The notes: generated by a model not told the origin, from the sequence alone. A DNA stretch of 40,428 bases from Deltaproteobacteria bacterium RBG_13_61_14 (GCA_001797815.1 MGQK01000125.1:16416-56843), one strand, 5' to 3'; positions 4,446-39,019 are shown, counted from the first letter of the stretch. A program made the numbers and translations.

Positions 4446-5483
4446 TTAAGGTCCAGATTTCTGCTGAACGAGGTCGAGGAGGTTGAGGATTTCGACTTTG
4501 TCGAATTGGGCTCTGCGATCGGAGCCTAGCGGATGGACCGCGGCTTTCGTTCCTTCGCCGTTAATACCGATGAAAAGGGCTCTGAAACTGCCGATGACTT
4601 TTCCCTGGCTTGGATCGAAAATAACATATTTATGATTGCCTACAGTAAAAATGGCGGCATTCAGCTTTTTGCTCCAGCAGACATATACAAAAGTTGTGTT
4701 GTCAGGATAATCTCCTTCATTTCTAATCATATTTTCCCAATCTTTCATTTCCCTATTATCTTGGGTTCTGAATATCAAGGATTCTGATGCCGAAAAGTTA
4801 TATTTACCATCGGAGGAAAAATAAATACCTGGATAGGAAACCAGATCACTTTTGCTTCTTTTAAGATCATACTTAATTACCTGTGGATTAATTAAAAGGT
4901 AAATATTTCCGTCATGTTCAGACCAGTTGAGATCTGTTATTCCGGTGGGTGCAGGAAGTATCATTCTATTAGTTTTATAATTAAAATTATAAAGCCACAC
5001 TCCTCCTTGATAACCGGGAGGAGCCGGTGAACCGCGTTCACCTGGTATTTCTTCTGCATAGACAATCGCGTTGCCCTTGGGAGAAAATGAAAAAATGGAA
5101 CCCCCATGGTCAAATGAGGCAACTTCTTTACTATTATTAACATCAAGAATAACTAAACGATAAAAGCTTTGCGCAGCGCTTTCGGAAGATTTAGTATTTG
5201 TTAAATTGCAAAATGCAACATAGGTTATCTTACTTCCTGTTGGATCAAGGGATATGTAACTTAAATGGCAATTATCCTGATTACGAACAGGATGCTCCCA
5301 AGAGCTTTTGTTATTATATTTGTCATATTTCGCTATATAGCGGTTCCCTTTTCCATTATATGGAGCAAAATAAGTATTTCCATCAGGGGCAATGATTATT
5401 CTATCAAAGGCATAACTGGAGTAAGTAAAAGAAAATATGGGTATCACAATAGCAAGCATTGTTCCCCAAAAGGGCTTTTTCAT
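4446..5483 (-). CDS. Secreted WD40/beta-propeller-like protein
   Basis: Signal peptide MKKPFWGTMLAIVIPIFSFTYSSYAF; repeated blade-like motifs (FSFSPKGNAIVYAEE, YFSSDGKYNF); AT-rich relative to neighbours. Confidence 0.6.
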   Translation of the reverse strand: MKKPFWGTMLAIVIPIFSFTYSSYAFDRIIIAPDGNTYFAPYNGKGNRYIAKYDKYNNKSSWEHPVRNQDNCHLSYISLDPTGSKITYVAFCNLTNTKSSESAAQSFYRLVILDVNNSKEVASFDHGGSIFSFSPKGNAIVYAEEIPGERGSPAPPGYQGGVWLYNFNYKTNRMILPAPTGITDLNWSEHDGNIYLLINPQVIKYDLKRSKSDLVSYPGIYFSSDGKYNFSASESLIFRTQDNREMKDWENMIRNEGDYPDNTTFVYVCWSKKLNAAIFTVGNHKYVIFDPSQGKVIGSFRALFIGINGEGTKAAVHPLGSDRRAQFDKVEILNLLDLVQQKSGP

Positions 5484-5503: not shown

Positions 5504-8500
5504 TCATGGTCTCCAAATTCTAATATGGAAATGATTATCATGTCCAGCGGTAGGGATCATTGGACAACCTGGAGGAGCAGTCAAACCGTCGCGGCCTTGC
5601 AGATCAGCATATATTCCAGTCGCTCCGAATTTGCAGAATAAATCAACTAACTCCTGGGTGAGAGGTTGGCTATAGCCAGCAACAGGAGGATCAGGAGGAA
5701 TATTGGTAAAAGTATAATTTGCTTCAGATCCATCATCCCGCATATACCTCAAATCCGCATCCTGACCCGTTCGATGGTAGGTATGGCACGGCGGCCCACC
5801 ACCCGGTCCCCAGCACATGCTTCCACCCTTTCTCCAACTCATATCTCCAATTGAAAACCGGGGACCCTCGGGATGCTGAAGATTCCATTCCCGACCAACC
5901 GCCTCAATAATTTGAAGCAACCTCAATGTTCCCCAATTGTCGCCTTTATTATAATCCAGTTGAATTCCATAAAAATGGCGATAACCAATCCCCTCGTCAG
6001 GCAAACGGAAGCCGCCAATCATTCCAATCGGCATCCCTGGGTTAGGGAAGGAAGAAACCGTATCGGCTACTGTGGGATCCAGGTAATCAATCGTTTCATT
6101 TTCTCGAAAGATTCCCTGATAATTTACGGCCTCCACCAAATCACTGATCTTATCCCCATCCCGGTCAAAGTGCGGCCACACCCCGATCCCCTCCGGCCCA
6201 AAAATCTGATTTACGGAATTACCCGCAATAGTAGAATAATAATTAGTTTTAATGGTCCCCCCATCAGCCACGGACACCGAATCGCTGTCCAGGACCATGA
6301 GCTTGCTCCCGGCCATCGTGTTAAACCACACCGCGGCCAGCACCTTGTTCCTATACGGCGTCCAGGCAACTTCGCGGATCCCGGCCCCGGTCCCGGTAAC
6401 CGCCGCGGTGGCCGCCCGCACTTCATTGTTGCTGTAATTCGTCAGATTTTCGGCCATGCATAAATTGTTGGTGTAATAACAGCCTAAAAAGGCCCGATCT
6501 CCCTGGGGAGAGACTGCTACGTCCGAACAATTTTGACAATCGGGGTGAGGAATAATCAAAGTAGAGACAATAATAATATCCTCACTGGTCAAGTCAGGAA
6601 CCGGCGCGACATCATAGAGCACCCGGAGGACCAGAGCATCCTGAGTCCGATAGGAAGCCGAACCATAGTTGACCACCAGCGAACGCCAAGGATTTTCCAC
6701 ATCCAGGGTATAGCTTTGAGGCAGGAAGGCAACTCCATATGGCCCAATATTGGCATTGGGCACACCGCTCCCGCTCGGGAAATAGGAATGATCTAAATAA
6801 AGGGAATTCCAGTTATCATCCGTTAAATAATAACGTCCGATATCCACGCTGAGGATTCTCCCATCGGCGCTGGTGCCGTTGCTCACGATCAAAAGGGTCT
6901 TGCCCTCCGGAGAAATATCCAGGTCTCGAAAGCCGGAAGTGCCGTCGCTGTAGAGCTTATTGGTCACGGCCTGTTGACAAAGTGTAGTGCCGGTAAGTTC
7001 AGGGTCCAGCGCCTTGCGGAGTTCGATCACCGAAATCACTTTATTATAGTTGCCCACAAAGGCCCGGCTCCCGTCCGGGCTGATCACCAGGGATTCCGGG
7101 TTACCGGGCGTGGGGGTTTTGCAGTTCAAAGGCACCATTTTCTTGATAGTGTTGGTGAGAGTATCTATCACCGCTACCCGGGTGGTAGCGCGGTTGGCAA
7201 CCAAGAGCCAATGGCCGTCGGGCGTGACATCCGCTTGATAGGGCGTGGGTGAACTGGTGGTGTCTCCCGGGTAAAAGGTTGCCGGGAAGGTATCTTCCAT
7301 GTAATTGTAAACCGATATCCGATGGCTCCCCCGGTTGGTGATGTAGGCGTAGGGCAAGCCATACTTGAAGGGCTGCAAGTTGCTGGCCACCGGCCAATTG
7401 TTCACCGTATTTTCAACATAAACCTCACCGGTAATGACGCTTCCCGGAACCGTGGCGGTAATCGAGGTGGGGCCAGCCGAAAGGATTTCTGCCTTCACCC
7501 GGCCGAGGGTGCCGGTGAAGTAAACCGCCACGGTATTTCCAAAATCAGTGCCCGCAATGACAACATCGTCACCCCCAACCGTGAAATCTGGCGAGATCGT
7601 ATCTATATTCGGATTCATCCCGCTGGGATAAATCGTAAAATTAATAATCTCATGGGAGGAAACATTCCCGAAATAATCTTCAATCCAAACTTCCAAAGTG
7701 TGAGGACCGGGAGAAAGACGGTCTTCAAAGGTAACCCACCATTCCGCGAAGTCAAAGTAGGTATTGAATTTTTCGGTAACCGGTTGCCCGTCTAGCAAAA
7801 TTACCAGAGTGCCTGGGTCAACCCCTGATGATCCGGGATCATAATATTCAACCCGAAAGTAAGGAGTATTCGTTCCCACGGCCTGACCATCGAGGGGGGA
7901 GACAATGTTCACCACCGGCGGGAGACCGCTCTCGATCAGGACCAGGGCCGAGTCCTCCGCTGATAATCCGGCCAGGTCTTCGATATAAGCCCGGATCAGG
8001 TTCCCGCCCTCATAAACTCCGGTCACCGATCCGGTCGCGCTGGTCTCGCCTACCGTGAGAGTTGGAGTAATGTCCACGTCATTATGATACACCATCAGGG
8101 TGGCGGTGTCAGCTCCCAACCCGATGTCGCTGTAAGTGATGTGGATCGAGATGAGCGAAATGGTAGTCATCCCGTCCGGGGGTTCCACGATGGTGATGAT
8201 TGGCGGGGTAACATCGGTAAAGATGCAGGGATCGTAGCCGTTCTGATATTCTTGCAAATTGGTATAACCGTCGGTGTCCGGGTCGGCCAGGCTGTCGCCC
8301 ACCAGGAGATTGACACAACTGGAATAGTTCACCTCCCAGGCATCTTCCATCCCGTCGCCGTCGGTGTCGGAGCTGCAAGGGTTGGAGCCGAGGTTGTATT
8401 CCGTGAGATTGCTCAAGGTGTCGCCGTCACCATCGGCCAGGGAATCGCCGACCAGAAGATTGACGCAGGCGGCATAACTATTCTCCCACCCGTCGGGCAT

Positions 8501-9703
8501 GGTGTCCCCGTCGGTGTCCGCGTTGCAGGGGTTCGAGCCCAGGGTGGATTCGGCCTTGTTGCTCAGGCTGTCCGTATCCCCGTCGCCCAGCGAATCACCC
8601 ACCAGAATATTCACGCACGCATAACTATTCTCCCACCCGTCGGGCATGGTGTCCCCGTCGGTGTCCGCGTTGCACGGATTCGAGTTCAGGCCGTATTCGG
8701 TCTCGTTGTTAAGAGTATCGGAGTCGTAATCCAGGAGGTTATCCACCGTGTTCGCCTGCATGCAGGCCGAATGGAAATTCTCCCAGTCGTCGGGCAGCCC
8801 GTCGCCGTCGGTGTCCAGATAAGCCTGGAGCTGGACCTGGGCCTCCACCGTCTCCCCGATGCCGATGACCGGGACCGGCGGGACGAACACGTTTACCAGG
8901 ATGGCGCCCTGCGCCGTCGGCTTCACCACCATCCGCGCCCGGCCATTGGCGCTCACCCGGCCGCTGATATCGTAGCGGATCCCATCGGTCTCCTCGCAGA
9001 GCTCATCCCCGGACACCGAACAGTCCCCGCCCCAGAGGCTGGCCGAACCCGAAAGCACCTCAAAGCCCACGCCCCACCCGGCCCGGCCTTGCATCCCGAC
9101 CTTCTTCAACTCTACCTCTATGCCCACCGTCTCTCCCACCCGCACTATCGGACTGCCCGGCGGGGAAATCACGGTCAGGGCAAACGGCCCCAGGTTGACG
9201 CTTCTGTTATTCAGGAGCTGGCTGAGGAAGTTCCTGTCCGGCACGCCGATGATGCCGTTGCCGTCCAGGTCGAGCACATCCCCATAAGGAGGATTGACGT
9301 TGGAAAAGTCCGCCGGCCGGTTGTTGAGGAGCAGGTTCAATCTATTCAGATCTGGAATTCCGAAAATATAATTGCCATCGCCGTCGCCAAAGTAGCACCT
9401 GCCGGGACAAGTAGCCCCGTGATTGCCATGCTTTTCTTTCCGGCAGGGATTAGAGGTAGGCAAAGGTGTCTCACCCTCTAAAATATAGGTATTGTTGCGG
9501 TCGTAGTATTCGTGGAGGTTGGGGTTCCAGTCGGTGTCCGCATCCAAAAGCGCATCGTCAAGGAAAGGGTCCAGGCAGGGGTATAGATTTTCCCAGTCAT
9601 CGGGCATGCCGTCGCCGTCGGCATCCGCGGCGAAAAGCGGGCGCCCGAGGGAGAGGCTGGCGGAGAGGGCCAGGAGAAGAGCAATGCCGAGTTTTTTCTT
9701 CAT
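5504..9703 (-). CDS. Large secreted mosaic protein: dockerin-like, TSP3-like repeats, Ig-like, IPT/TIG, beta-propeller and C-terminal LAS/MepA-like metallopeptidase domain
   Basis: Signal peptide; repeated DTDGDxMPDxWE; NIDTISPDFTVGGDDVVIAGTDFGNTVAVYFTG (IPT); YAYITNRGSHRISVYN (YncE-like); HRTGQDAD...HFHIRIW (LAS-type HxxxxxxD/HxH). Confidence 0.75.
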   Translation of the reverse strand: MKKKLGIALLLALSASLSLGRPLFAADADGDGMPDDWENLYPCLDPFLDDALLDADTDWNPNLHEYYDRNNTYILEGETPLPTSNPCRKEKHGNHGATCPGRCYFGDGDGNYIFGIPDLNRLNLLLNNRPADFSNVNPPYGDVLDLDGNGIIGVPDRNFLSQLLNNRSVNLGPFALTVISPPGSPIVRVGETVGIEVELKKVGMQGRAGWGVGFEVLSGSASLWGGDCSVSGDELCEETDGIRYDISGRVSANGRARMVVKPTAQGAILVNVFVPPVPVIGIGETVEAQVQLQAYLDTDGDGLPDDWENFHSACMQANTVDNLLDYDSDTLNNETEYGLNSNPCNADTDGDTMPDGWENSYACVNILVGDSLGDGDTDSLSNKAESTLGSNPCNADTDGDTMPDGWENSYAACVNLLVGDSLADGDGDTLSNLTEYNLGSNPCSSDTDGDGMEDAWEVNYSSCVNLLVGDSLADPDTDGYTNLQEYQNGYDPCIFTDVTPPIITIVEPPDGMTTISLISIHITYSDIGLGADTATLMVYHNDVDITPTLTVGETSATGSVTGVYEGGNLIRAYIEDLAGLSAEDSALVLIESGLPPVVNIVSPLDGQAVGTNTPYFRVEYYDPGSSGVDPGTLVILLDGQPVTEKFNTYFDFAEWWVTFEDRLSPGPHTLEVWIEDYFGNVSSHEIINFTIYPSGMNPNIDTISPDFTVGGDDVVIAGTDFGNTVAVYFTGTLGRVKAEILSAGPTSITATVPGSVITGEVYVENTVNNWPVASNLQPFKYGLPYAYITNRGSHRISVYNYMEDTFPATFYPGDTTSSPTPYQADVTPDGHWLLVANRATTRVAVIDTLTNTIKKMVPLNCKTPTPGNPESLVISPDGSRAFVGNYNKVISVIELRKALDPELTGTTLCQQAVTNKLYSDGTSGFRDLDISPEGKTLLIVSNGTSADGRILSVDIGRYYLTDDNWNSLYLDHSYFPSGSGVPNANIGPYGVAFLPQSYTLDVENPWRSLVVNYGSASYRTQDALVLRVLYDVAPVPDLTSEDIIIVSTLIIPHPDCQNCSDVAVSPQGDRAFLGCYYTNNLCMAENLTNYSNNEVRAATAAVTGTGAGIREVAWTPYRNKVLAAVWFNTMAGSKLMVLDSDSVSVADGGTIKTNYYSTIAGNSVNQIFGPEGIGVWPHFDRDGDKISDLVEAVNYQGIFRENETIDYLDPTVADTVSSFPNPGMPIGMIGGFRLPDEGIGYRHFYGIQLDYNKGDNWGTLRLLQIIEAVGREWNLQHPEGPRFSIGDMSWRKGGSMCWGPGGGPPCHTYHRTGQDADLRYMRDDGSEANYTFTNIPPDPPVAGYSQPLTQELVDLFCKFGATGIYADLQGRDGLTAPPGCPMIPTAGHDNHFHIRIWRP
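8340..8770. repeat. Tandem intragenic repeats of about 147-150 bp encoding TSP3-like 49-50 aa units
   Basis: ataactattctcccacccgtcgggcatggtgtccccgtcggtgtccgcgttgca recurs from 8474 and 8621 (147 bp apart); diverged units flank it. Confidence 0.85.
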
Positions 9704-9841: not shown

Positions 9842-11866
9842 TTAGGGTGGAGCAGGAGAAGGCTGAGAGGCTTTTAGTTTTTGCAATTCCGCTTTGATCT
9901 TGCTGTCCTGGGGATGGCGCTTGAGGTATTCCTGCAAGGCCGCAATGGCAGAATCGAGCCGGTTTTGGCGTTGGTAGAGGAGAGAGAGGTTGGAGTAGGT
10001 CTCCGGCAGGTCCGGGTCTATCTCCAGCGAGCGGCGGAATTCGGACTCGGCTTCTTCATACTTTCCCATGCTGGCGAGGGCCGCGGCGTAATTGTTGTGG
10101 GCCTCGGCATTGTAGGGCATCAACTCCACCGCCCGGGCCAAGGCGTCCGCCGCTTCCGGGTAGCGCCGGAGCTCGAGCAGGTTCTTGCCCAAATTGTTGT
10201 AAGGATGCCCGGAGCGGGGATTGTATTGAATCGCCTGTTTTAAAGTCTCGATGGCTTGCTCGCGCCGGTCGGTCAGGTTGTAGATGTTGGCCAGGTTGTT
10301 GTAAGCCTTGTCATACTTGGGGTCCAACCGGATCGCCCGCAAATAAAGCGGCTCGGCCCGCTTGGTGTCGCCGGCCTTGCCGTAAGTATCTCCCAGGACG
10401 GTCATTGTCCGCGCTTTCCTCGGCGACTTCCTCACGCAATTCCGCCAGAGCGCCTCTTCCGTCCGCCAGTCCTGGACCCGGGCCCAGGCCAGCGCCGCCC
10501 AGAGGACCGCCACCACCGCCGCGGCCGGAATCATTCTCTTTTGCGATCCGGCCAGGCGCAGGAGGGCCACGGCCACCAACAAGACGAGTCCCAGCGAAGG
10601 CAGATACAAGCGGTGGTCGAAAGCGATCTCCAGGGGGAGGAAGGTGGACTCGAGGGCGAGGTGGAGGAAGAACCACAGGGTGGCAAAGGATAACAGGGGG
10701 GTCCTCCGGGCATTGAGCACGGCCAGGACGAGCAGCGCGAGGATCCCGATCAGGGCGGGCAAGGTGGAGGGCGGGGAGAGGGCCACGGTGGAGAGGGGGA
10801 TATCGTAGTCCAGGTTCATCCAGGCCGGGAGCGGGAAGAAGAAGATGAGGAGGTAATGCCAGATCACGCGGGGCTCGGTGAGCAGGCGCTCGGCCAGGGT
10901 AAATTCCCGGCCCGCGTAATAGTCGCGGAGCTGCTGGAGAGGGTGGCCGGCCAGGACGATCACGCCGAAGACGGCCATGAAGAGCAGGGCGAGGCCTGCG
11001 GTCCAGGCGTAGCGCCGGAGCCATTTCAGGTCGAGGTCGCGGAAGCAGAAAATCTCGATCAGGAGGACGGCGAGGGGCAGGGTCGCGACAATCTCTTTGG
11101 AGCCGAGCCCCAGCCCGAAGCTGATGACTGCGCCGGCCAGGTAGAGCCAGCGAAGCGGCGACCGGATTGAATCCGGTCGCACGGAGATTCGGAAGCGGAA
11201 CCAGGCGACCAGGGCCAGGAGGTAAAACAGCACGGCCAGGCTGTTCATGCGCTGGACGATATAGACCACCGACTGGGACTGCACCGGGTTCACCAGCCAG
11301 AGCAGCGCAGCCACCAGCGCGACCAAGTCCGGCGCTCCCTGGAAGCGGCCGCGGCCGGCGAGGTAGCTCAGGAGCTGGGCGAGGAAGAGATAGACCAGGA
11401 GGCCGTTGAGGAGGTGGATGGCGAGGTTCACGGCCTGGTAGCCGGCGGGGTTGGTCCGGCCGAAGTAGTAGTTGAGGGCCAGGGTCAGGTTGGCCACCGG
11501 CCGGTGCGGGATCGCGCTTTTGAACATGGCCTGGGAAACGGCGGACAGATTGAGCGAGCGCAGGTGGATGAAGTAGTTGAGCAGGATGTTGGGCCGGTCG
11601 TCGAAATGGAAGGGATGGGAAAGCGCGTTGTGATAGACCAGAAGCCCGGCGCCCAGGATCAAGGCCGCGGCCAGCGCGCCGCGGACCGGACGGCGGCCGA
11701 CGGCCGGCTTGGCCGCGGGAACCGCGGCGGTTTTTTTTACCTTCGCCTCCTGCAGGACTTGCTCGACCTCGCGCAGTTTCAGACCCAATTCCCGCGCCAA
11801 TTCTTCCGCCGACTGCCTGGGCCAGACGCGCAGGATCTGCTTGCGCTTCTTCTTGGAGACCGCCAT
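9842..11866 (-). CDS. TMTC-like membrane glycosyltransferase with C-terminal TPR repeats
   Basis: HRPVANLTLALNYYFGRTNPAGYQAVNLAIHLLNGLLVYLFL...NPVQSQSVVYIVQRMNSLAVLFYLLAL; TPR array DKAYNNLANIYNLTDRREQAIETLKQAIQYNP. Confidence 0.75.
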   Translation of the reverse strand: MAVSKKKRKQILRVWPRQSAEELARELGLKLREVEQVLQEAKVKKTAAVPAAKPAVGRRPVRGALAAALILGAGLLVYHNALSHPFHFDDRPNILLNYFIHLRSLNLSAVSQAMFKSAIPHRPVANLTLALNYYFGRTNPAGYQAVNLAIHLLNGLLVYLFLAQLLSYLAGRGRFQGAPDLVALVAALLWLVNPVQSQSVVYIVQRMNSLAVLFYLLALVAWFRFRISVRPDSIRSPLRWLYLAGAVISFGLGLGSKEIVATLPLAVLLIEIFCFRDLDLKWLRRYAWTAGLALLFMAVFGVIVLAGHPLQQLRDYYAGREFTLAERLLTEPRVIWHYLLIFFFPLPAWMNLDYDIPLSTVALSPPSTLPALIGILALLVLAVLNARRTPLLSFATLWFFLHLALESTFLPLEIAFDHRLYLPSLGLVLLVAVALLRLAGSQKRMIPAAAVVAVLWAALAWARVQDWRTEEALWRNCVRKSPRKARTMTVLGDTYGKAGDTKRAEPLYLRAIRLDPKYDKAYNNLANIYNLTDRREQAIETLKQAIQYNPRSGHPYNNLGKNLLELRRYPEAADALARAVELMPYNAEAHNNYAAALASMGKYEEAESEFRRSLEIDPDLPETYSNLSLLYQRQNRLDSAIAALQEYLKRHPQDSKIKAELQKLKASQPSPAPP

Positions 11867-19059: not shown

Positions 19060-21087
19060 TCAGCCCCCGAGCAGCGCCCGCAGTTGCCGGGCCTCGAAGT
19101 TTTGGGGGTCGTGCCGGAGGACCTGGTCCAGGTAGCGCCGAGCCAGCCGGCGGTTGCCCGAGGAAGCGTAATAGCGGGCCAGGAAGAGCCGGGTCTCCTG
19201 GTCGAGATGGTTGAGTTTCGCCGCTCGTTGGTAGAAAGAAATCGCTTCCTCCCGACGCCCCTGGTTCCAGCGGATAGCGGCCAGGCTCCGAAAGGCCCAG
19301 GGCTGATTGGGGTAATAGCGCAAGCACTGCTGGATAACGGCCTCCGCTTCCGCGGTCCGATCCTCATCCAGCAGCAAAGGGGTCAGCCGGAGCATGGCTT
19401 CCTCGGCCGCAGGGAAAATCGCCAGCGCCGCGCGGTAATGGCGGATGGCGGACTCGGAATCGCCTCTGCCTTGGTCGAGCTTGGCCAGCAGGATCCGGGC
19501 TTTGGCCGAGACCATGCCGGGATGGGCCGAATCGAGCTCCAGGATTTTGTTCAACTGCTCCCGGGAATCCTCGCCTTGGCCGGCTTCGGCCAGGGCCGAG
19601 GCCAGGTCAAGCCGGGCCGGAAGAAAGTCGGGGAACTCCTTGGTCACCTTCCGGAAAAGCCTCTCCGCCTCGGCCAGGTTCCCGTGCGTTTTGGCCGCAT
19701 AGCCTTGCCACATGAGCTGTTCGGCGATCCCCATTTCCGGGCCTTCGCTCCCGCCCAGGTTTCCGGCCAGCAAAAGCCCGACCGCGGCCAAGGCGGCGAG
19801 AAGCAGGGGAAACCTCTTTTTTTGCCGCCATTTTTCTTCGGCCCAGGCCGGGAGCCAACTCGCGGCCAGGATCAACGCGGGCACGGTGGGCATGCGGTAG
19901 CGGGCCGCCGCCATGAAAAGGATAATGGCGACCACCTGGGCTCCGGCATAGAGCACGAGCAGGACGCGGTCGGGCCGGCGCTCGCGGCCAAGCAAGATCA
20001 AGCCGAGCAGCCCGAGGGGGCCGATGATCCCGTAAGGCCAGGCGAGGCCGTGTTCCCAGAGCAGGGAGCTCAGCAGGGAAGAGTAATTGCGGGCCAGGTA
20101 GGGGTCCTGGTTGCGCAGATATTCGTGGCCGCGGAAAAAGCGGCAAGTCTTGCGGCCGAGACGCCAGAGCCAGGCCCAGGGATCTTGCTTGAGGTCTGCA
20201 ACCGCCCGCCGATAAAACCAGTCCGACCGCTCTCCCGGCCGAACCGCTCCGGCCAGCAAAGGCTGGATCACGAAGTTGTCCCACGCGTAGGGCCGGATCT
20301 GCATGAAGGCATCGGCGTCGCGGTTGTTGCCGATGTAGAAATTGATGCCGCCGTTGCTGGAGATGAGGACGAACTCGCGGGAGGTGAAGGCGTTGTGGAT
20401 GGTGGCCGGAGAGATGATGAGCAGGCCGGCGGCGACCAGCAGCCCGAGCCGGACTGCGAGCGGCCGGAGCGCGAAGGCCGGCCGCAGCCGCCAGGCCAGC
20501 CAGAGCGCGGCCGCGGGCAGGAAGACCAGGATGTCGGGCCGGGTCAGGGCGGAAAGGCCGAACAGGACTCCGGCGGCTCCGAAGCGAAAGAAGGAGGGAT
20601 GGTCGGGGATGCGGAGCAGGATCAGGAGCAAGGCCAGGTTGAAAAGGATGATCAGCGGCACTGGCAGATAGTCGCCCTCGAAAAAGAGGAAGGTGCCGTA
20701 GCCGGCGGCGATGATCCCGGCGGCCAGCGCCGCCGGCCGGGAAAACAACCTGCGGCCGAGCCGGTAGATCAGGGCGCAATTGAGAGCGCCGACCAGGAAG
20801 TGGGCGAGGTGGAGGCGGAGCGGACTGGGACCCGTGAGCCAGAGGACGACGCCGAGCCAGTAAGGGTAAAGCGGCGGCTGCCAGAAGGCCTCCTCCTGGA
20901 TCCAAAAACCCTGAACCAGGTTTTGGGCCAATTGCAGGTAGGTCTGGGCGTCAATGATCGGCGTATCGAAGAACGGGCTTTTCTGGAACTGGATGAGGTA
21001 GATCCAGCGGACAAGGAGGGCCAGGGCAAAGACCGCGACGCTCAGGATCAGATCGAGAGAGAAGATCTTTTTCAATCTAGCGTTCAT
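19060..21087 (-). CDS. Membrane glycosyltransferase (GT39/ArnT-like, GT-C fold) with C-terminal TPR region
   Basis: YLIQFQKSPFFDTPIIDAQTYLQLAQNLVQGFWIQEEAFWQPPLYPYWLG; many TMs then TPR-like repeats. Confidence 0.8.
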   Translation of the reverse strand: MNARLKKIFSLDLILSVAVFALALLVRWIYLIQFQKSPFFDTPIIDAQTYLQLAQNLVQGFWIQEEAFWQPPLYPYWLGVVLWLTGPSPLRLHLAHFLVGALNCALIYRLGRRLFSRPAALAAGIIAAGYGTFLFFEGDYLPVPLIILFNLALLLILLRIPDHPSFFRFGAAGVLFGLSALTRPDILVFLPAAALWLAWRLRPAFALRPLAVRLGLLVAAGLLIISPATIHNAFTSREFVLISSNGGINFYIGNNRDADAFMQIRPYAWDNFVIQPLLAGAVRPGERSDWFYRRAVADLKQDPWAWLWRLGRKTCRFFRGHEYLRNQDPYLARNYSSLLSSLLWEHGLAWPYGIIGPLGLLGLILLGRERRPDRVLLVLYAGAQVVAIILFMAAARYRMPTVPALILAASWLPAWAEEKWRQKKRFPLLLAALAAVGLLLAGNLGGSEGPEMGIAEQLMWQGYAAKTHGNLAEAERLFRKVTKEFPDFLPARLDLASALAEAGQGEDSREQLNKILELDSAHPGMVSAKARILLAKLDQGRGDSESAIRHYRAALAIFPAAEEAMLRLTPLLLDEDRTAEAEAVIQQCLRYYPNQPWAFRSLAAIRWNQGRREEAISFYQRAAKLNHLDQETRLFLARYYASSGNRRLARRYLDQVLRHDPQNFEARQLRALLGG

Positions 21088-22375: not shown

Positions 22376-23977
22376 ATGATCAAAAGAATGTTATTTCTAT
22401 TGGGCATTGTGATCCTGTGGGGGAAAGCGGACCGGGCCTGGTCGCAGGTATCATGCACGGAGCCGGTTGAGACCGGCTCGGGACTGGTTAGCGGGAAAGC
22501 CGATGCCGGGACCGCAACCTGCGTTTGGCTTGGGGTGCCGTATGCCGCGCCGCCGGTGGGAGAGCTTCGCTGGAAGCCGCCCCAAAAGCCCCGGCCATGG
22601 GAGGGCGTCAAGGAAACCAGGGAGTTTTGCGCCGCCTGCACTCAATATGGCGGAATGATGTCGATTATGGACTGCGCGAGGATTGGCAAAATTATCGGGA
22701 GCGAAGACTGTCTCTACCTCAATATCTGGCGGCCGCGCAGCGAGGCCAAGGGCTTGCCGGTATTCTTCTGGATTCACGGCGGAGGCAATATGGTCGGGCA
22801 ATCGGCCATGAGCCTGTATCATGGCGCCAATTTCGCCGCGCGCTCCAACATGATCTTCGTGAGTATCAATTACCGGCTTGGCCCCCTGGGTTGGTTTACT
22901 CATCCCGCGCTCCAGACCGGAGATCCCATCGCTGACTCGGGCAATTACGGGACGCTGGATATCATCCAGGCGCTCAAGTGGGTAAAAGAAAATATCGCCA
23001 ATTTTGGAGGAGACCCCACTAATGTCACCATCGCCGGCGAGTCCGCGGGCGGGATGAACGTATATTCTTTGCTCGTCTCTCCGCTGGCCTCCGGACTTTT
23101 TCAGCGGGCCATTTCCGAAAGCGGCGCGCCGAGGGCCGGCGCCATGAAGGATGGGAAGCAAGAAAGCGATTGGCTGCTGTCACAGCTGGTGGTCAAGGAC
23201 GGCCTGGCCGAGAGCGGGGAAGGAGCCAAAAGGTTCGTTGAAAGCAAGGGCCAGGAATGGATTGCATCATATCTGAGATCGAAAGAACGCGAGGAAATCT
23301 ATTCCTGCTACCGAAGCTCGCTGTATGGCACTCTCCGGGGTTCCCATCAGGTCTTTATTGATGGGACGGTTTTGGTCGCCAGTCCCATGCAGAGCCTGAA
23401 ATCGGGGAATTATAACAAGGTTCCTTTTCTGGTGGGAAACAACGCGGAGGAGTTAAAGCTGTTTCTTTCGCCGATGATGACCAAAATGAATGAGGCCGAA
23501 CTCTGTCAATTCATCAAGGATTCTGATCCCGACCGCGACACCGTCAAGCGCAGTGAATTGGTGCAACCGGGGTACTGGCCCATCTATGATCCATTGACCC
23601 GGCTGGGAACCATGCTTGTCCGGTCGGCGGGAGTGGATTCGCCGGCGCGGGCGATGAGCAAACACCAGGACGATATCTATGCTTACCAATTCAATTGGGA
23701 CGATGAGCCCAAGCCAGTTAATTTCGCCATCGGCGCGGCTCACGGCATGGAGATGCCTTTTGTCTTCGAAAATTTCGACCAAGGCCCTGACAGCGCATTG
23801 CGGTTTGCCTGGACCGAAGAAAACAAGGCCGGTCGGGAAAAGCTCAGCGCCCTCATGATGTCCTATTGGGCCAACTTCGCCCGGAACGGAAACCCCAACG
23901 GCCCGGGCCTTCCCGAATGGCGGCCCTGGTCTGATAAGCCGGGTTCCCACAACCGCATGATCCTGGATGCCGACTAA
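22376..23977 (+). CDS. Secreted type-B carboxylesterase, paralog 1
   Basis: SEDCLYLNIWRP, FWIHGGGN, IAGESAGGMN, GAAHGMEMPFVF. Confidence 0.9.
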   Translation: MIKRMLFLLGIVILWGKADRAWSQVSCTEPVETGSGLVSGKADAGTATCVWLGVPYAAPPVGELRWKPPQKPRPWEGVKETREFCAACTQYGGMMSIMDCARIGKIIGSEDCLYLNIWRPRSEAKGLPVFFWIHGGGNMVGQSAMSLYHGANFAARSNMIFVSINYRLGPLGWFTHPALQTGDPIADSGNYGTLDIIQALKWVKENIANFGGDPTNVTIAGESAGGMNVYSLLVSPLASGLFQRAISESGAPRAGAMKDGKQESDWLLSQLVVKDGLAESGEGAKRFVESKGQEWIASYLRSKEREEIYSCYRSSLYGTLRGSHQVFIDGTVLVASPMQSLKSGNYNKVPFLVGNNAEELKLFLSPMMTKMNEAELCQFIKDSDPDRDTVKRSELVQPGYWPIYDPLTRLGTMLVRSAGVDSPARAMSKHQDDIYAYQFNWDDEPKPVNFAIGAAHGMEMPFVFENFDQGPDSALRFAWTEENKAGREKLSALMMSYWANFARNGNPNGPGLPEWRPWSDKPGSHNRMILDAD

Positions 23978-23988
23978 GGAGGCTGAAG

Positions 23989-25635
23989 ATGAAAAAATCA
24001 ATTCCCCTTGGTGTGGCCCTTTTCGCGGTTCTTTTGTGTCTGAGCGGGTCCGGGCCGGCAATGGCCGGAGACGATCTTTGCTCCCGGTCAGTAGCCACAG
24101 GCCAGGGGCCGGTGCTCGGCCAGGCCGAGAAAAACCTGCCCGCCTGCTCTTACAAGGGCATCCCTTACGCGGCCCCGCCAAAGGGCGAGCTCCGTTTCCG
24201 GCTGCCGGGGCCGCCCGCCATGCGGGCCGGAACGCTGGCGGCGCTGGATTACGGTCCGTCCTGCGTTCAGAATGAAATCTTCGGGGCCGGCGGCAAGAGC
24301 CAGTCCTTCAGCGAGGATTGCCTGTTCCTCAACATCTGGCGTCCGCAAAAGACCGGCGCGTTCCCGGTGATGGTGTGGATCCACGGCGGGGGTTTCGTCA
24401 TGGGCTCGGGCTCCTACGAAATGTATCGCGGGGCCAACCTGGCCGCGCAACACGAAGTGGTGGTGGTCACTATCAACTACCGCGTGGGTCCGCTCAGCTT
24501 CCTCGCCTTGCCGGAGCTGGCTCGGGAAGACCCGAACGGCTCCACCGGAAATTACGGGCTCTTCGACCAGATCGCGGCCCTGCAATGGGTCCACGACAAC
24601 ATCGCCGGATTCGGGGGCGACCCGGACAACGTCACCATCTTCGGCGAGAGCGCGGGCGGCCGCTCGGTCTGCGGACAGCTGGCCTCGCCCCGGGCCGCGG
24701 GTCTGTTCCAGCGCGCCATCATCGAGAGCGGACGCTGTGACGACGTCCAGACCCTTGCCCAGGGCTTTGAGAACAGCCGCGAGTTCGTGAAGAAGCTTGG
24801 CTGTGCCGGGGAGGACGCCAGATCTTGCCTGCGGGCGCTTCCGGCCAATAAGCTGGCCATGTCCCTTGGCGCGCGCCGCGATCTCGAGTTCACGGCGCAT
24901 ATGGACGGGTGGTTCTTGACCGCCCGGCCCTCGGACCTGTTCGCCCAGGGAAAATTCAACCGCGTCCCGGTCCTGATCGGCAACAACCGGGACGAGGGCA
25001 AACTCTTTGTTCTCATGGAGCCGGGGGGCTATTTCGCCTCCCGCAAAAAGGTCCTGCAAACGCTGAAGGAGAGGATGGGCCCCCGGGCCGACGAGGTCCT
25101 GGCGATGTATTCCCTTGACGACTACCATCCACCAAACATGATCTCCGGCGCGATCATCACTGACACGTATGTCTCCCGCGGCTTTGATGCTGCGGAAAAG
25201 CTCTCGCCCTACGTGCCCGTCTATTTTTACCGGTTTGACTGGGACGAGGAGCGCGGGAGCGGTTTCTTGGGGGCCTGTCACGGCCTCGAGCTTCCCTTTG
25301 TCTTCGGGAACCTGGACCTGCATTTCCCGGCCTCCGAGCTGGCGCTGGCCCTCCCCAGGAAGGCCGCGCGCGAGGCCGAGCCTCTTTCCGAGCGGATGAC
25401 GGCTTATTGGACCAATTTCGCCAAGACCGGCGATCCCAACGGCGCCGGCCTGCCCGAGTGGCCCCTCTACAACTCGGAAACCAGAATGCGGCTCCACCTT
25501 GACACGAACCTTTCCGCAAGACCGGTGACGGGCGAGGAGTTGAAGCGGCTGCAATACTTCGCCGGCCTGAGCGCGGAGGACCTGGGCCGCCGGGCCGGGG
25601 AAAAACCGCAGGGGGCCGGAGAGCGGCGCCGATGA
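23989..25635 (+). CDS. Secreted type-B carboxylesterase, paralog 2
   Basis: SEDCLFLNIWRP, VWIHGGGF, FGESAGGRS, GACHGLELPFVFGN. Confidence 0.92.
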   Translation: MKKSIPLGVALFAVLLCLSGSGPAMAGDDLCSRSVATGQGPVLGQAEKNLPACSYKGIPYAAPPKGELRFRLPGPPAMRAGTLAALDYGPSCVQNEIFGAGGKSQSFSEDCLFLNIWRPQKTGAFPVMVWIHGGGFVMGSGSYEMYRGANLAAQHEVVVVTINYRVGPLSFLALPELAREDPNGSTGNYGLFDQIAALQWVHDNIAGFGGDPDNVTIFGESAGGRSVCGQLASPRAAGLFQRAIIESGRCDDVQTLAQGFENSREFVKKLGCAGEDARSCLRALPANKLAMSLGARRDLEFTAHMDGWFLTARPSDLFAQGKFNRVPVLIGNNRDEGKLFVLMEPGGYFASRKKVLQTLKERMGPRADEVLAMYSLDDYHPPNMISGAIITDTYVSRGFDAAEKLSPYVPVYFYRFDWDEERGSGFLGACHGLELPFVFGNLDLHFPASELALALPRKAAREAEPLSERMTAYWTNFAKTGDPNGAGLPEWPLYNSETRMRLHLDTNLSARPVTGEELKRLQYFAGLSAEDLGRRAGEKPQGAGERRR

Positions 25636-25710
25636 GCGCCTTGGAAAGCGCGGCGGCGGGATTCGGTTTTCGGGCTGGAGGTTTTGCTCTTCCTTAGGGA
25701 GGATGAGGAA

Positions 25711-27333
25711 ATGCATAAAGAAAAAGCACGGATGATCAAGTTTTGGGTTTTGGGGTTGGCTTGGCTGCTGGCGGCGCCGGCCCTGGCCGCGGAAGACCTC
25801 TGCGCCACGCCGGTCGCCACCGAGCAGGGCCAGGTGGCGGGCACGGCCGCGCCGGGGATGGCCGCCTGCTCCTACAAAGGCATCCCTTACGCGGCGCCGC
25901 CCGAGGACGAGCTGCGCTGGCAAGCGCCCCGGCCTCCGGCCGCGCGGACCGGCGTGCTCAAGGCCAAGGCTTTCGGGCCGTCCTGCATTCAGGACGAGAG
26001 CTTCAGCGGCGGGGGCAAGAGCAAGGTGTTCAGCGAGGACTGCCTCACGCTTAACATCTATCGTCCGGTCCGCTCCGGCACGTTCCCGGTGATGTTCTGG
26101 ATCCACGGCGGCGGCTTTACCCAAGGCGCGGGCAGCTACGAGATGTATGACGGCGCCCGGCTGGCCGCGGAGCGCGAGGTGGTGGTGGTGAGCATCAACT
26201 ACCGGCTGGGCGTGCTCGGCTTCCTGGCTTTGCCCGAGCTGGCCGCGGAAGACCCCCATCACAGCACCGGCAATTACGGCATGCTCGACATCATCGCCGC
26301 GCTCAATTGGGTGCGCGCCAACATCGCCGGCTTTGGCGGCGACCCGAATAACGTTACCATTTTCGGCGAGTCCGCCGGCGGGGTCGCGGTCTGCAACCTG
26401 CTCGCCTCGCCCCTGGCCGCGGGCCTTTTCCAGCAGGGCGTGATCGAGAGCGGCGGCTGCGACCTGGTCCTGACCCAGGAAAAGGGATTTGAACAGGGCC
26501 GCAAGTTCGCCCGGGCCGCGGGCTGTGAGGAGAGCGACGTCGTGGATTGCCTGCGCTCGGCGCTGGTCTGGAAAATGCTCGGGCCGGCCGCCGCCGGCTT
26601 CAACGCTTCCGCTCAGGTGGACGGCTACGTGCTTTCGGCCAAGCCGATTGAGGTTTTCAAGACCGGCGAATTCAACCGGGTGCCGGTGCTGGTGGGCTCG
26701 AACAAGGACGAGTTCAACATGGCCCTGCTCCTGATGCCCGGCGCCATGTTTGCCAGCCGCTCCATGCTCACCAAGACCCTGCATAAGACGGTGGGTCAGC
26801 GGGCGGACGAGATGCTGGCCCTGTATTCGTTTGACGATTACCGCAAGCCGGCCTTCCTGATCGGCGCCCTGTTCGCGGACGGGTTCGGCTCGCGCGCCTT
26901 CGCCGCGGCGGAGGAGTTATCGCCTTACACGCCGGTCTATCTCTACCGCTTCGACTGGGACGACGAGCGCTGGGGCAAGAGTATGGGCGCGTTCCACGGC
27001 CTGGAGATCCCGCTGGTGTTCGGGAACTTGAAGCTGCACCTGCGCACCGCGCCGCTGCGGCTGGTGCTTCCGAAAAAAGCGGCCGGCAAGGCCGAGCCGC
27101 TCTCCGGCCAGATGATGTCCTACTGGACCAACCTGGCCAAGACCGGAACTCCCAACGCCGGCGAGCTTCCGGCCTGGCCCAAGTATAACACCCAGGCGCG
27201 GGAGCGGATCTACCTGGATACCGCGATCTCCGTGGCCCCGCTTTCCGCCAAAGAGGTCGAGCGCTACCAGTATTTCGCCGCGCTCAGCATCGAGGATTTG
27301 CGCTGGGGCGAGACCGAGGAAAAGAAGAAGTAA
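25711..27333 (+). CDS. Secreted type-B carboxylesterase, paralog 3
   Basis: SEDCLTLNIYRP, FWIHGGGF, FGESAGGVA, GAFHGLEIPLVFGN; ATG 25711 chosen from signal peptide. Confidence 0.92.
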   Translation: MHKEKARMIKFWVLGLAWLLAAPALAAEDLCATPVATEQGQVAGTAAPGMAACSYKGIPYAAPPEDELRWQAPRPPAARTGVLKAKAFGPSCIQDESFSGGGKSKVFSEDCLTLNIYRPVRSGTFPVMFWIHGGGFTQGAGSYEMYDGARLAAEREVVVVSINYRLGVLGFLALPELAAEDPHHSTGNYGMLDIIAALNWVRANIAGFGGDPNNVTIFGESAGGVAVCNLLASPLAAGLFQQGVIESGGCDLVLTQEKGFEQGRKFARAAGCEESDVVDCLRSALVWKMLGPAAAGFNASAQVDGYVLSAKPIEVFKTGEFNRVPVLVGSNKDEFNMALLLMPGAMFASRSMLTKTLHKTVGQRADEMLALYSFDDYRKPAFLIGALFADGFGSRAFAAAEELSPYTPVYLYRFDWDDERWGKSMGAFHGLEIPLVFGNLKLHLRTAPLRLVLPKKAAGKAEPLSGQMMSYWTNLAKTGTPNAGELPAWPKYNTQARERIYLDTAISVAPLSAKEVERYQYFAALSIEDLRWGETEEKKK

Positions 27334-27345
27334 CCGGAGGCCGGA

Positions 27346-28938
27346 ATGAAAAATGCTTGCCTATCGGCTTTGATTGCCGTGCTGGCTTTCACCGCCGGCC
27401 TGGCGGAGGAGCCTTCCTTTAAGGCCGAGTCCAGGCAACCCACGGAAAGCGCCAGCCTCGGTAACCTCCTCCAGGGCCTTTTCACCGGGCCTTACAAAAT
27501 CCGGAAAGAGAGGAATCGGGCAAAAAAGCTGGTTCCATCCTTGCCTGATTTCGAGACCACGGTCACGGTGCCCGACTCCGGCACGATCTACTCCTGGATC
27601 GAGGGCATCTGCCAGACCCCGCACCGCCGGCCGGGCACGCCCGAAGACCAGCAAGCGGAAAAGTGGGTGGCCGAGCGCTTCCGGGAGTTCGGGCTCTCGA
27701 ACGTGACCCTGGACCCGATCCCGCTCCAGGTCTGGACCGCGGAGCAATGGTCGCTCCGGGTCGGCGCGCTAGAAATCCCCAGCTTCTACGTGCTCAATAC
27801 CGGCTGGACCGGGCCGGAAGGGGTGAGTGCGCCCTTAGTTTACGTGGGCACCGGCAAGCCCAAGGACTTCGAAAAAGTTGAGGTCAAGGGCAAGATCGTG
27901 GTGGCCGAGGTCCCCATCCTCTACCTGCCCACCGGCGCGATGCTCAAGCTGACCGGGAGCTACTTCGCGCTCTCGGACCCGGACCGCCAGGTGACCCTGG
28001 GCTACGGCCAATACCTGACCTTCCTGCTCCCCAACTTTACCGGCTATGCCACCGAGGAAGAAGCGCCGGCCCGGGATGTTTACTGGCAAGCCTATCGCCG
28101 CGGCGCATTAGCCATCTGCCTGATCCTCAAGGGCCATCCCTCCAACAGCAACACCCATTACGGTCCTTACGACGGCATCATGAAGCCCCTGCCCGGGCTC
28201 TGGATCGGGAACTATGACGGCGAGCGGCTGCGAGCGCTGGCTCAACAGGGCGCGGAAGCCTCGCTCCTTCTCCAAGGCCGGATCGAACCCGGCGTCACCC
28301 ACAACGTCTGGGGCGTGCTGCCCGGCGCTTCGGATGAGGTAATCCTGGTGACCTCTCACCATGACGCCCCCTTCCTGGGCGCGGTGGAAGACGGCGCCGG
28401 GGTGGCCCAGGTGCTGGCCCAGGCCTGGGCCTGGTCGCGCCTGCCCCAAGCGAAGCGGCCCAAGACCCTGGTCTTTGTGGTGGACGCCGGGCATTTTTAC
28501 GGCTCGATCGGCGCGGCTGCCTTTGCCCGCGAGCACCGGGAGATTATGCAGCGCACCCGGGTGCTGGTGACCCTTGAGCACCTCGGCGCCAAGGACGTGG
28601 AGGAGCGCGACCGCGAGTATGCCGAGACCGGCCAGCCGGCGCTGACCATCCTCTTCACCTCCCACGATCCCGAGGTGATTGCGACCGTGGCCAAGGGCCT
28701 GGAACAAAAGCCGCTCCCGGCCACGGTGTCGCTGCCGGTGGACCTTCTCGGTCCCACGCCTCCTTCGGACGCGGCCCGCTATATCTCCGAAGCCGGCGTG
28801 CCGGCTATTTCCTGGATCACCGGCCCGGCCTACCTGCTCGATGCCTACGACACCCTGGACAAGGTGGACCAGGCCCGGCTAAAGCCCATCGCCGAAACCG
28901 TGGCCGGGATGATCGGGACGTTTATGGCTCTGCCCTAA
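27346..28938 (+). CDS. M28 peptidase-like protein with atypical metal-site motifs
   Basis: Signal peptide; VILVTSHHDAPFLGAVEDGAGVAQVLAQAWA; VFVVDAGHFYGSIGAAAFA where EE is expected; YLLDAYDTLDKVD. Confidence 0.75.
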   Translation: MKNACLSALIAVLAFTAGLAEEPSFKAESRQPTESASLGNLLQGLFTGPYKIRKERNRAKKLVPSLPDFETTVTVPDSGTIYSWIEGICQTPHRRPGTPEDQQAEKWVAERFREFGLSNVTLDPIPLQVWTAEQWSLRVGALEIPSFYVLNTGWTGPEGVSAPLVYVGTGKPKDFEKVEVKGKIVVAEVPILYLPTGAMLKLTGSYFALSDPDRQVTLGYGQYLTFLLPNFTGYATEEEAPARDVYWQAYRRGALAICLILKGHPSNSNTHYGPYDGIMKPLPGLWIGNYDGERLRALAQQGAEASLLLQGRIEPGVTHNVWGVLPGASDEVILVTSHHDAPFLGAVEDGAGVAQVLAQAWAWSRLPQAKRPKTLVFVVDAGHFYGSIGAAAFAREHREIMQRTRVLVTLEHLGAKDVEERDREYAETGQPALTILFTSHDPEVIATVAKGLEQKPLPATVSLPVDLLGPTPPSDAARYISEAGVPAISWITGPAYLLDAYDTLDKVDQARLKPIAETVAGMIGTFMALP

Positions 28939-38548: not shown

Positions 38549-38698
38549 AAAAAAGCGACTTCCCCCCGAAGTCGCTTGGCAGAACCCTCTTGCTGCCGTC
38601 TCCTTTCCAAACACGGGGGGTCAGGAAGTTTCCTTCCAGGCCTAGCGGTCACTGTCCATGGCCTCGATTCCGGCTTTAGGAAGCAGTAACTCGGAGAC
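38549..38698 (-). ncRNA. Candidate structured small RNA (~150 nt), family unassigned
   Basis: Minus strand -35 CTGACT/-10 TAGGAT (18-nt spacer) before GTCTCC; GTCTCC pairs with GGAGAC; GGAAG-GAAA-CTTCC hairpin; terminator AAGCGACTTC-loop-GAAGTCGCTT plus Ts; no convincing ORF. Confidence 0.5.
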
Positions 38699-39019
38699 AA
38701 AAATATCCTAATACAATGCCCAGTGAAAAGTCAGGAAAATATTTTTCCTCGTTGACAGAAGCGGGGGCGACCATTTCGGGTTCGGGGCGATATCCAGGTC
38801 AGACGGCGTCGCCGGCTTCGGACGCTCCCCCGAGCAACGACCTTCTTCCCCGACCCCTTCCTGATATCAGGAGTGGAAGCCCTTTTCATGTTTTCAGGGT
38901 GCCACGCCTCGCGCGGCATGAATGACCGTGCTTCATTCTTTCTTCCACCTCCTGGTATCAGCATCAGAGAACGTGATTGCAGTGGCCGTCAATCTTGATT
39001 GTGTGCTAGAATTCAAGGA

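Follow-up and report, generated by a model that had tools for sequence, protein, structure and literature searches.

A compact M74-type LAS metallopeptidase domain predicted at the C-terminus of a large exported TSP3/TIG/beta-propeller protein

We analyzed a 40,428-nucleotide stretch of DNA (hereafter, the window) from Deltaproteobacteria bacterium RBG_13_61_14, in which an intact open reading frame on the minus strand (5504-9703) starts with ATG, has no internal stops, and encodes a multidomain, putatively exported protein of 1399 amino acids. A second minus-strand gene (4446-5483), which we discuss further below, follows it closely. Elsewhere, the window carries two membrane-protein-plus-TPR genes (9842-11866 and 19060-21087, both on the minus strand), the second of which matches PMT_2 mannosyltransferase, while the first is similar in layout. 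It also carries three carboxylesterase genes in a row followed by an M28 peptidase (22376-28938, plus strand) and a molybdenum/tungsten cofactor riboswitch (38584-38708, minus strand; Rfam RF01055, 64.8 bits).

The 1399-aa protein begins with a probable Sec signal peptide, MKKKLGIALLLALSASLSLGRPLFAA, as read from the sequence (residues 1-26; 9626-9703; this and all following features lie on the minus strand). The first TSP3-like calcium loops, with the motifs DADGDGMPDDWE and DADTDWNPN, occupy residues 27-70 (9494-9625). Next come a dockerin-like calcium-loop pair, DGDGNYIFGIPDLN / DLDGNGIIGVPDRN (residues 104-170; 9194-9394), and a beta/Ig-like domain (residues 171-290; 8834-9193); the loop pair is also found in paralogues from the same genome, where the Ig-like domain is conserved together with it. 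A TSP3 array of tandem repeats of about 49 amino acids (TRF period of 147 to 150 bp) spans residues 297-500 (8204-8815). It is about 50% identical to the arrays of the same-genome paralogues and scores just below the Pfam cut-off for TSP3_bac (23.0 bits versus 25). The array is followed by an Ig-like region in which Big_13 and Big_7 match below their cut-offs (residues 501-695; 7619-8203), an IPT/TIG domain (PF01833; residues 698-781; 7361-7612; 23.6 bits versus a cut-off of 20.9), and a YVTN/lactonase-type beta-propeller (residues 785-1178; 6170-7351). The propeller region matches a surface-layer protein of known structure (PDB 1l0q) with an E value of 9e-15; the Lactonase family stays under its cut-off of 21.7 bits when the whole protein is scanned (20.8 bits) but reaches 25.9 bits when the region is isolated. 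The protein ends in a compact M74/LAS metallopeptidase domain (residues 1229-1399; 5507-6019).

Of the fused parts named in a preliminary description of this gene, the IPT domain, the TSP3-like repeats, and the propeller are thus borne out, with the TSP3 score falling just short of its threshold, whereas the dockerin is a resemblance of loops only. The two DxDGN loops lie 38 residues apart, and each is followed by a conserved GIPDxN/GVPDxN...LLNNR stretch. The isolated pair has no Pfam dockerin match up to an E value of 1, and there is no match to cohesin (PF00963) in the genome, which is 95% complete. We therefore rejected a dockerin or cellulosome reading.

The N-terminal TSP3/loop-pair/Ig module recurs within this genome, in which 61 stretches match it, many of them in proteins of 800 to 4800 amino acids. 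In several paralogues, including a C25 (gingipain-type) peptidase, the loop pair and the Ig-like domain form the C-terminal module, and in an M6 peptidase they sit near the C-terminus; in the window protein, they are N-terminal. Its recurrence on the C25 and M6 peptidases speaks for a shared function in displaying or attaching secreted hydrolases. In the 1399-aa protein, we found neither an anchoring nor a sorting signal, and its surface location is therefore an inference. The same genome encodes a large exported family (L071-L083) of 800 to 4800 amino acids, among them the C25 and M6 peptidases, that has TSP3 arrays in common and, in some members, the dockerin-like loop pair with the Ig-like domain.

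At the C-terminus, the Pfam M74 family (PF03411) matches residues 1229-1322 at 28.6 bits, above its cut-off of 25; the match covers model positions 11 to 90 of 240. The preliminary description had read a MepA-like domain here from its HxxxxxxD and HxH signature, and both halves of the signature can be located, as HTYHRTGQDAD (residues 1307-1317; 5753-5785) and within GHDNHFH (residues 1387-1393; the histidines at 5525-5542). On alignment, all six of the active-site residues of E. coli MepA are kept. H113, D120, and H211, which we take to be the zinc ligands of MepA, correspond to H1310, D1317, and H1393, and the further conserved histidines H110, H206, and H209 correspond to H1307, H1388, and H1391. 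We aligned the domain with four full-length homologues, obtained by tblastn against plasmids and by scanning public genomes, and found 21 invariant columns, which include the motif histidines and aspartate. When the protein was shuffled 100,000 times, the complete spacing pattern of the six residues turned up once. A bare HxxxxxxD...HxH pattern turned up in about 2% of shuffles; it is therefore unconvincing by itself, and we did not use it as sole evidence.

Profile and structure comparisons point in the same direction. As a lone query against PDB sequences, the window domain found no LAS match, so a profile was needed. A five-member profile aligned along the length of MepA with 97.5% probability and retrieved MepA (1tzp) from the PDB with an E value of 3.7e-11. 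An AlphaFold model of the C-terminal domain, built from only four sequences, reached a pTM of 0.69 and a mean pLDDT of 63, with a core of roughly 75 to 90. Its best PDB match was MepA (E value, 1.3e-6; probability, 1.00; TM score, 0.51), and five MepA chains were the sole matches with an E value of 0.001 or lower; the next ones were Hedgehog signalling domains and LdcB, all LAS proteins. Structure prediction and alignment returned neither a missing LAS fold nor absent zinc ligands, the two outcomes that the preliminary description had named as contradicting it. From sequence and model together, we assign the domain to the LAS peptidases, M74 type.

The domain differs from MepA in several respects. 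M74 domains are described as about 230 amino acids long and as accompanied by amidases, LysM, or PGB1 in a review of cell-wall hydrolases (PMC6403190). The window domain has about 170 residues, and the protein ends six residues past the HxH motif. Moreover, the gap between D1317 and H1393 is 76 residues, compared with 91 in MepA, and an eight-residue insertion of the CWGPGGGP type (Gly/Pro/Cys) precedes the first motif. Given the early end, the shorter gap, and the insertion, we classify it as a compact M74 variant that lacks the C-terminal extension of MepA, rather than as MepA itself. The extension and a size of about 230 residues are usual, but to our knowledge neither is required for catalysis. 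LAS folds can lose catalytic function, as in Hedgehog, and in the structural comparison Hedgehog proteins come directly after MepA; the domain could then be a noncatalytic, zinc-dependent binding module like the Hedgehog N-domains. We regard this as highly improbable, given that the compact family conserves all of the catalytic histidines in addition to the metal ligands.

We next consider how the domain is distributed. No other M74 domain was found in its genome, and two other sampled genomes of the same order have no M74 match. Across the 386 genomes sampled, 21 have M74 matches at an E value of 0.001 or lower, a count that includes the window's own genome and a few spurious cases; two catalase-peroxidase-like matches (L055 and L058) were set aside as such. 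No close relative of the window domain was found in phages or viral contigs; one viral sequence matched another profile, and its C-terminus looks M15-like. Elsewhere, compact M74 is the last domain on several unrelated carriers, for which the labels Rhs, TraG-like, and amidase-like come from sequence inspection rather than from a domain search. Namely, it ends a 3471-aa Rhs/YD-repeat protein in genome G194 (L070, 4269-15252), TraG-like conjugation proteins of sphingomonads (L005, 640-3423; L009, 7100-10423), where it perhaps serves to open the wall during transfer, a V8-like protease fusion, and Ig-like proteins. It also follows PG_binding_1 (L089 and, by inspection, L007) and, again by inspection, an amidase-like N-terminus (L008), and one plasmid cluster combines it with an amidase and GH19 (L004). 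The peptidoglycan-directed contexts of these full-length homologues (L089, L007, L008, and L004) count in favor of an endopeptidase. Within this limited sampling, none of the relatives found carries M74 on a TSP3/TIG/propeller protein, and the companions reviewed for M74 are amidases, LysM, and PGB1 (PMC6403190); in this respect the preliminary description, which placed the architecture in no standard family, stands.

These observations bear on what the enzyme might act upon. It could serve the envelope of its own cell in wall remodelling or matrix turnover, exposed on the outside so that surface proteins can be released or inserted. Such a role would suit the sole M74 of a genome, borne on a carrier module that the cell also uses in many other large exported proteins. 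Yet the two relatives of the same order have no M74 match, which argues against a conserved housekeeping function, and we consider this role quite improbable.

A different target would fit the gene that follows. Its likely start at 5483 lies about 20 nt past the stop of the 1399-aa ORF, and from this ATG it would encode a signal-peptide-like protein of 345 amino acids, perhaps propeller-like. The protein belongs to no known Pfam family and has no relatives in the 386 genomes or in plasmids; on these searches, the gene appears to be a lineage-specific ORFan. It shares an AT-rich stretch with the M74 end of the upstream gene (GC3 of 0.30 to 0.43, versus about 0.8 in neighboring genes), which is consistent with later acquisition. 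The M74 tip could be an antibacterial effector that attacks the wall of competitors, with the 345-aa protein as its exported immunity protein. The Rhs/YD-repeat protein of G194 has a toxin-immunity-like layout of this kind, with an exported-looking 181-aa ORF 22 nt downstream. Similarly, an exported-looking next gene is present at 8 of 13 compact M74 loci versus 3 of 16 long ones (Fisher p = 0.027), in a small survey whose counts were made post hoc, after the pattern had been seen, with a crude signal-peptide rule, with near-identical loci collapsed by hand, and with two of the eight judged by eye. For these reasons, we treat the enrichment of exported next genes beside compact M74 as a lead. 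We consider the effector unlikely overall. Pfam and NCBIfam scans of the window protein show no known toxin-delivery domain (such as Rhs, filamentous haemagglutinin-like, or T6SS domains), an immunity protein would usually be shorter than the product of the next gene, and GC declines gradually across the locus in a genome with other AT-rich loci. The effector-immunity and own-envelope readings differ mainly in their target.

Comparisons of the 345-aa protein with the neighbors of other M74 genes revealed no homology to the neighbor of the Rhs-M74 protein and only a chance-level match (E value, 0.07) to propeller lipoproteins adjoining M74 in genome G332. In four loci from two phyla (L087, L088, L096, and L099), a gene with a very compact M74-like end precedes one for a secreted protein of 270 to 380 amino acids, and these secreted proteins are homologous. 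Beside Ig-like carriers, the partner proteins of three genomes from a single phylum are homologs of one another (E value of about 1e-26), with weak homology to one from another phylum (HMM E value, 1.1e-5), indicating that the pair of carrier and partner is conserved at least for Ig-like carriers. One partner (G333) bears two CBM5/12 (chitin-binding) modules, which fits an accessory protein and points to such a role rather than to immunity.

A broader scenario would unite these cases: compact M74 domains may be exchangeable wall-cutting tips, swapped among giant exported carriers (Rhs, TraG-like, Ig-like, and TSP3/propeller), each with the gene of a secreted partner or inhibitor beside it. The partner of the window protein, and perhaps the propeller fused to the domain, would then restrain the LAS site, much like Hhip on Hedgehog. 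Hhip is itself a propeller. Its binding site on Hedgehog is the zinc centre (PMC4102407). We built a model of the propeller and M74 regions of the window protein to seek a docked, inhibited state; it was uninterpretable (pTM, 0.35). The analogy with Hhip and Hedgehog is speculation, and the scenario as a whole seems rather improbable.

Taken together, we think it probable that the protein is an exported, zinc-dependent peptidoglycan endopeptidase on a calcium-stabilized surface or matrix carrier, with its catalysis, target, and location predicted. The Sec signal would direct export, the repeats and the loop pair would hold the protein at the cell surface or in the matrix, and the propeller and TIG domains may serve for binding or spacing. 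At the M74 tip, one Zn2+ ion and a water molecule would cut a peptide bond containing a D-amino acid in peptidoglycan, possibly D-Ala-mDAP by analogy with MepA. The peptidoglycan could be the cell's own or that of neighbors and cell debris. The supported parts of this explanation are the domain order, the predicted LAS fold, the retention of the residues for zinc binding and catalysis, and the recurrence of the N-terminal module on secreted hydrolases of the same genome. Counted against an endopeptidase are the absence of the C-terminal extension, the eight-residue insertion, the low confidence of the propeller model, and the precedent of Hedgehog. M74 proteins have been described as stand-alone periplasmic enzymes or as fusions to wall-binding modules; the carrier of the window domain is unusual for this known type of enzyme. 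The presence of compact M74 domains on unrelated large exported carriers in distant lineages suggests use outside the cell, in attack, feeding, or matrix turnover, and, with a secreted neighbor gene recurring, a role in inhibition or immunity can be tested directly.

Among known systems, MepA (penicillin-insensitive murein endopeptidase; PF03411, MEROPS M74, PDB 1u10/1tzp) is like the window domain in its LAS fold, zinc ligands, second-shell histidines, and export. It is, however, a stand-alone periplasmic enzyme of 274 amino acids, whereas the window domain is the compact tail of a 1399-aa protein. The compact M74 fusions (L004, L007, L008, L009, and L089) have the same compact domain, with about 30 to 35% identity and the same invariant residues, but their carriers are short wall-binding, protease, or conjugation modules instead of TSP3/TIG/propeller. 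The Rhs/YD-repeat protein of G194 is also large and exported, with M74 last and an exported-looking ORF directly downstream; unlike the window protein, it has an Rhs carrier and no propeller, TSP3, or TIG. The surface proteins of L087, L088, L096, and L099 resemble the window in having an exported carrier (Ig-like in those scanned), an M74-like end, and an adjoining secreted partner gene. In contrast, their zinc motifs are just 37 to 45 residues apart and their partner family is unrelated to the next gene of the window; Pfam gives the M74-like end of L088 a score below its cut-off and finds no M74 in L087. Finally, the window protein has its propeller region in common with the YVTN/lactonase propeller surface-layer proteins (PDB 1l0q), in whose solved chain we know of no peptidase domain.
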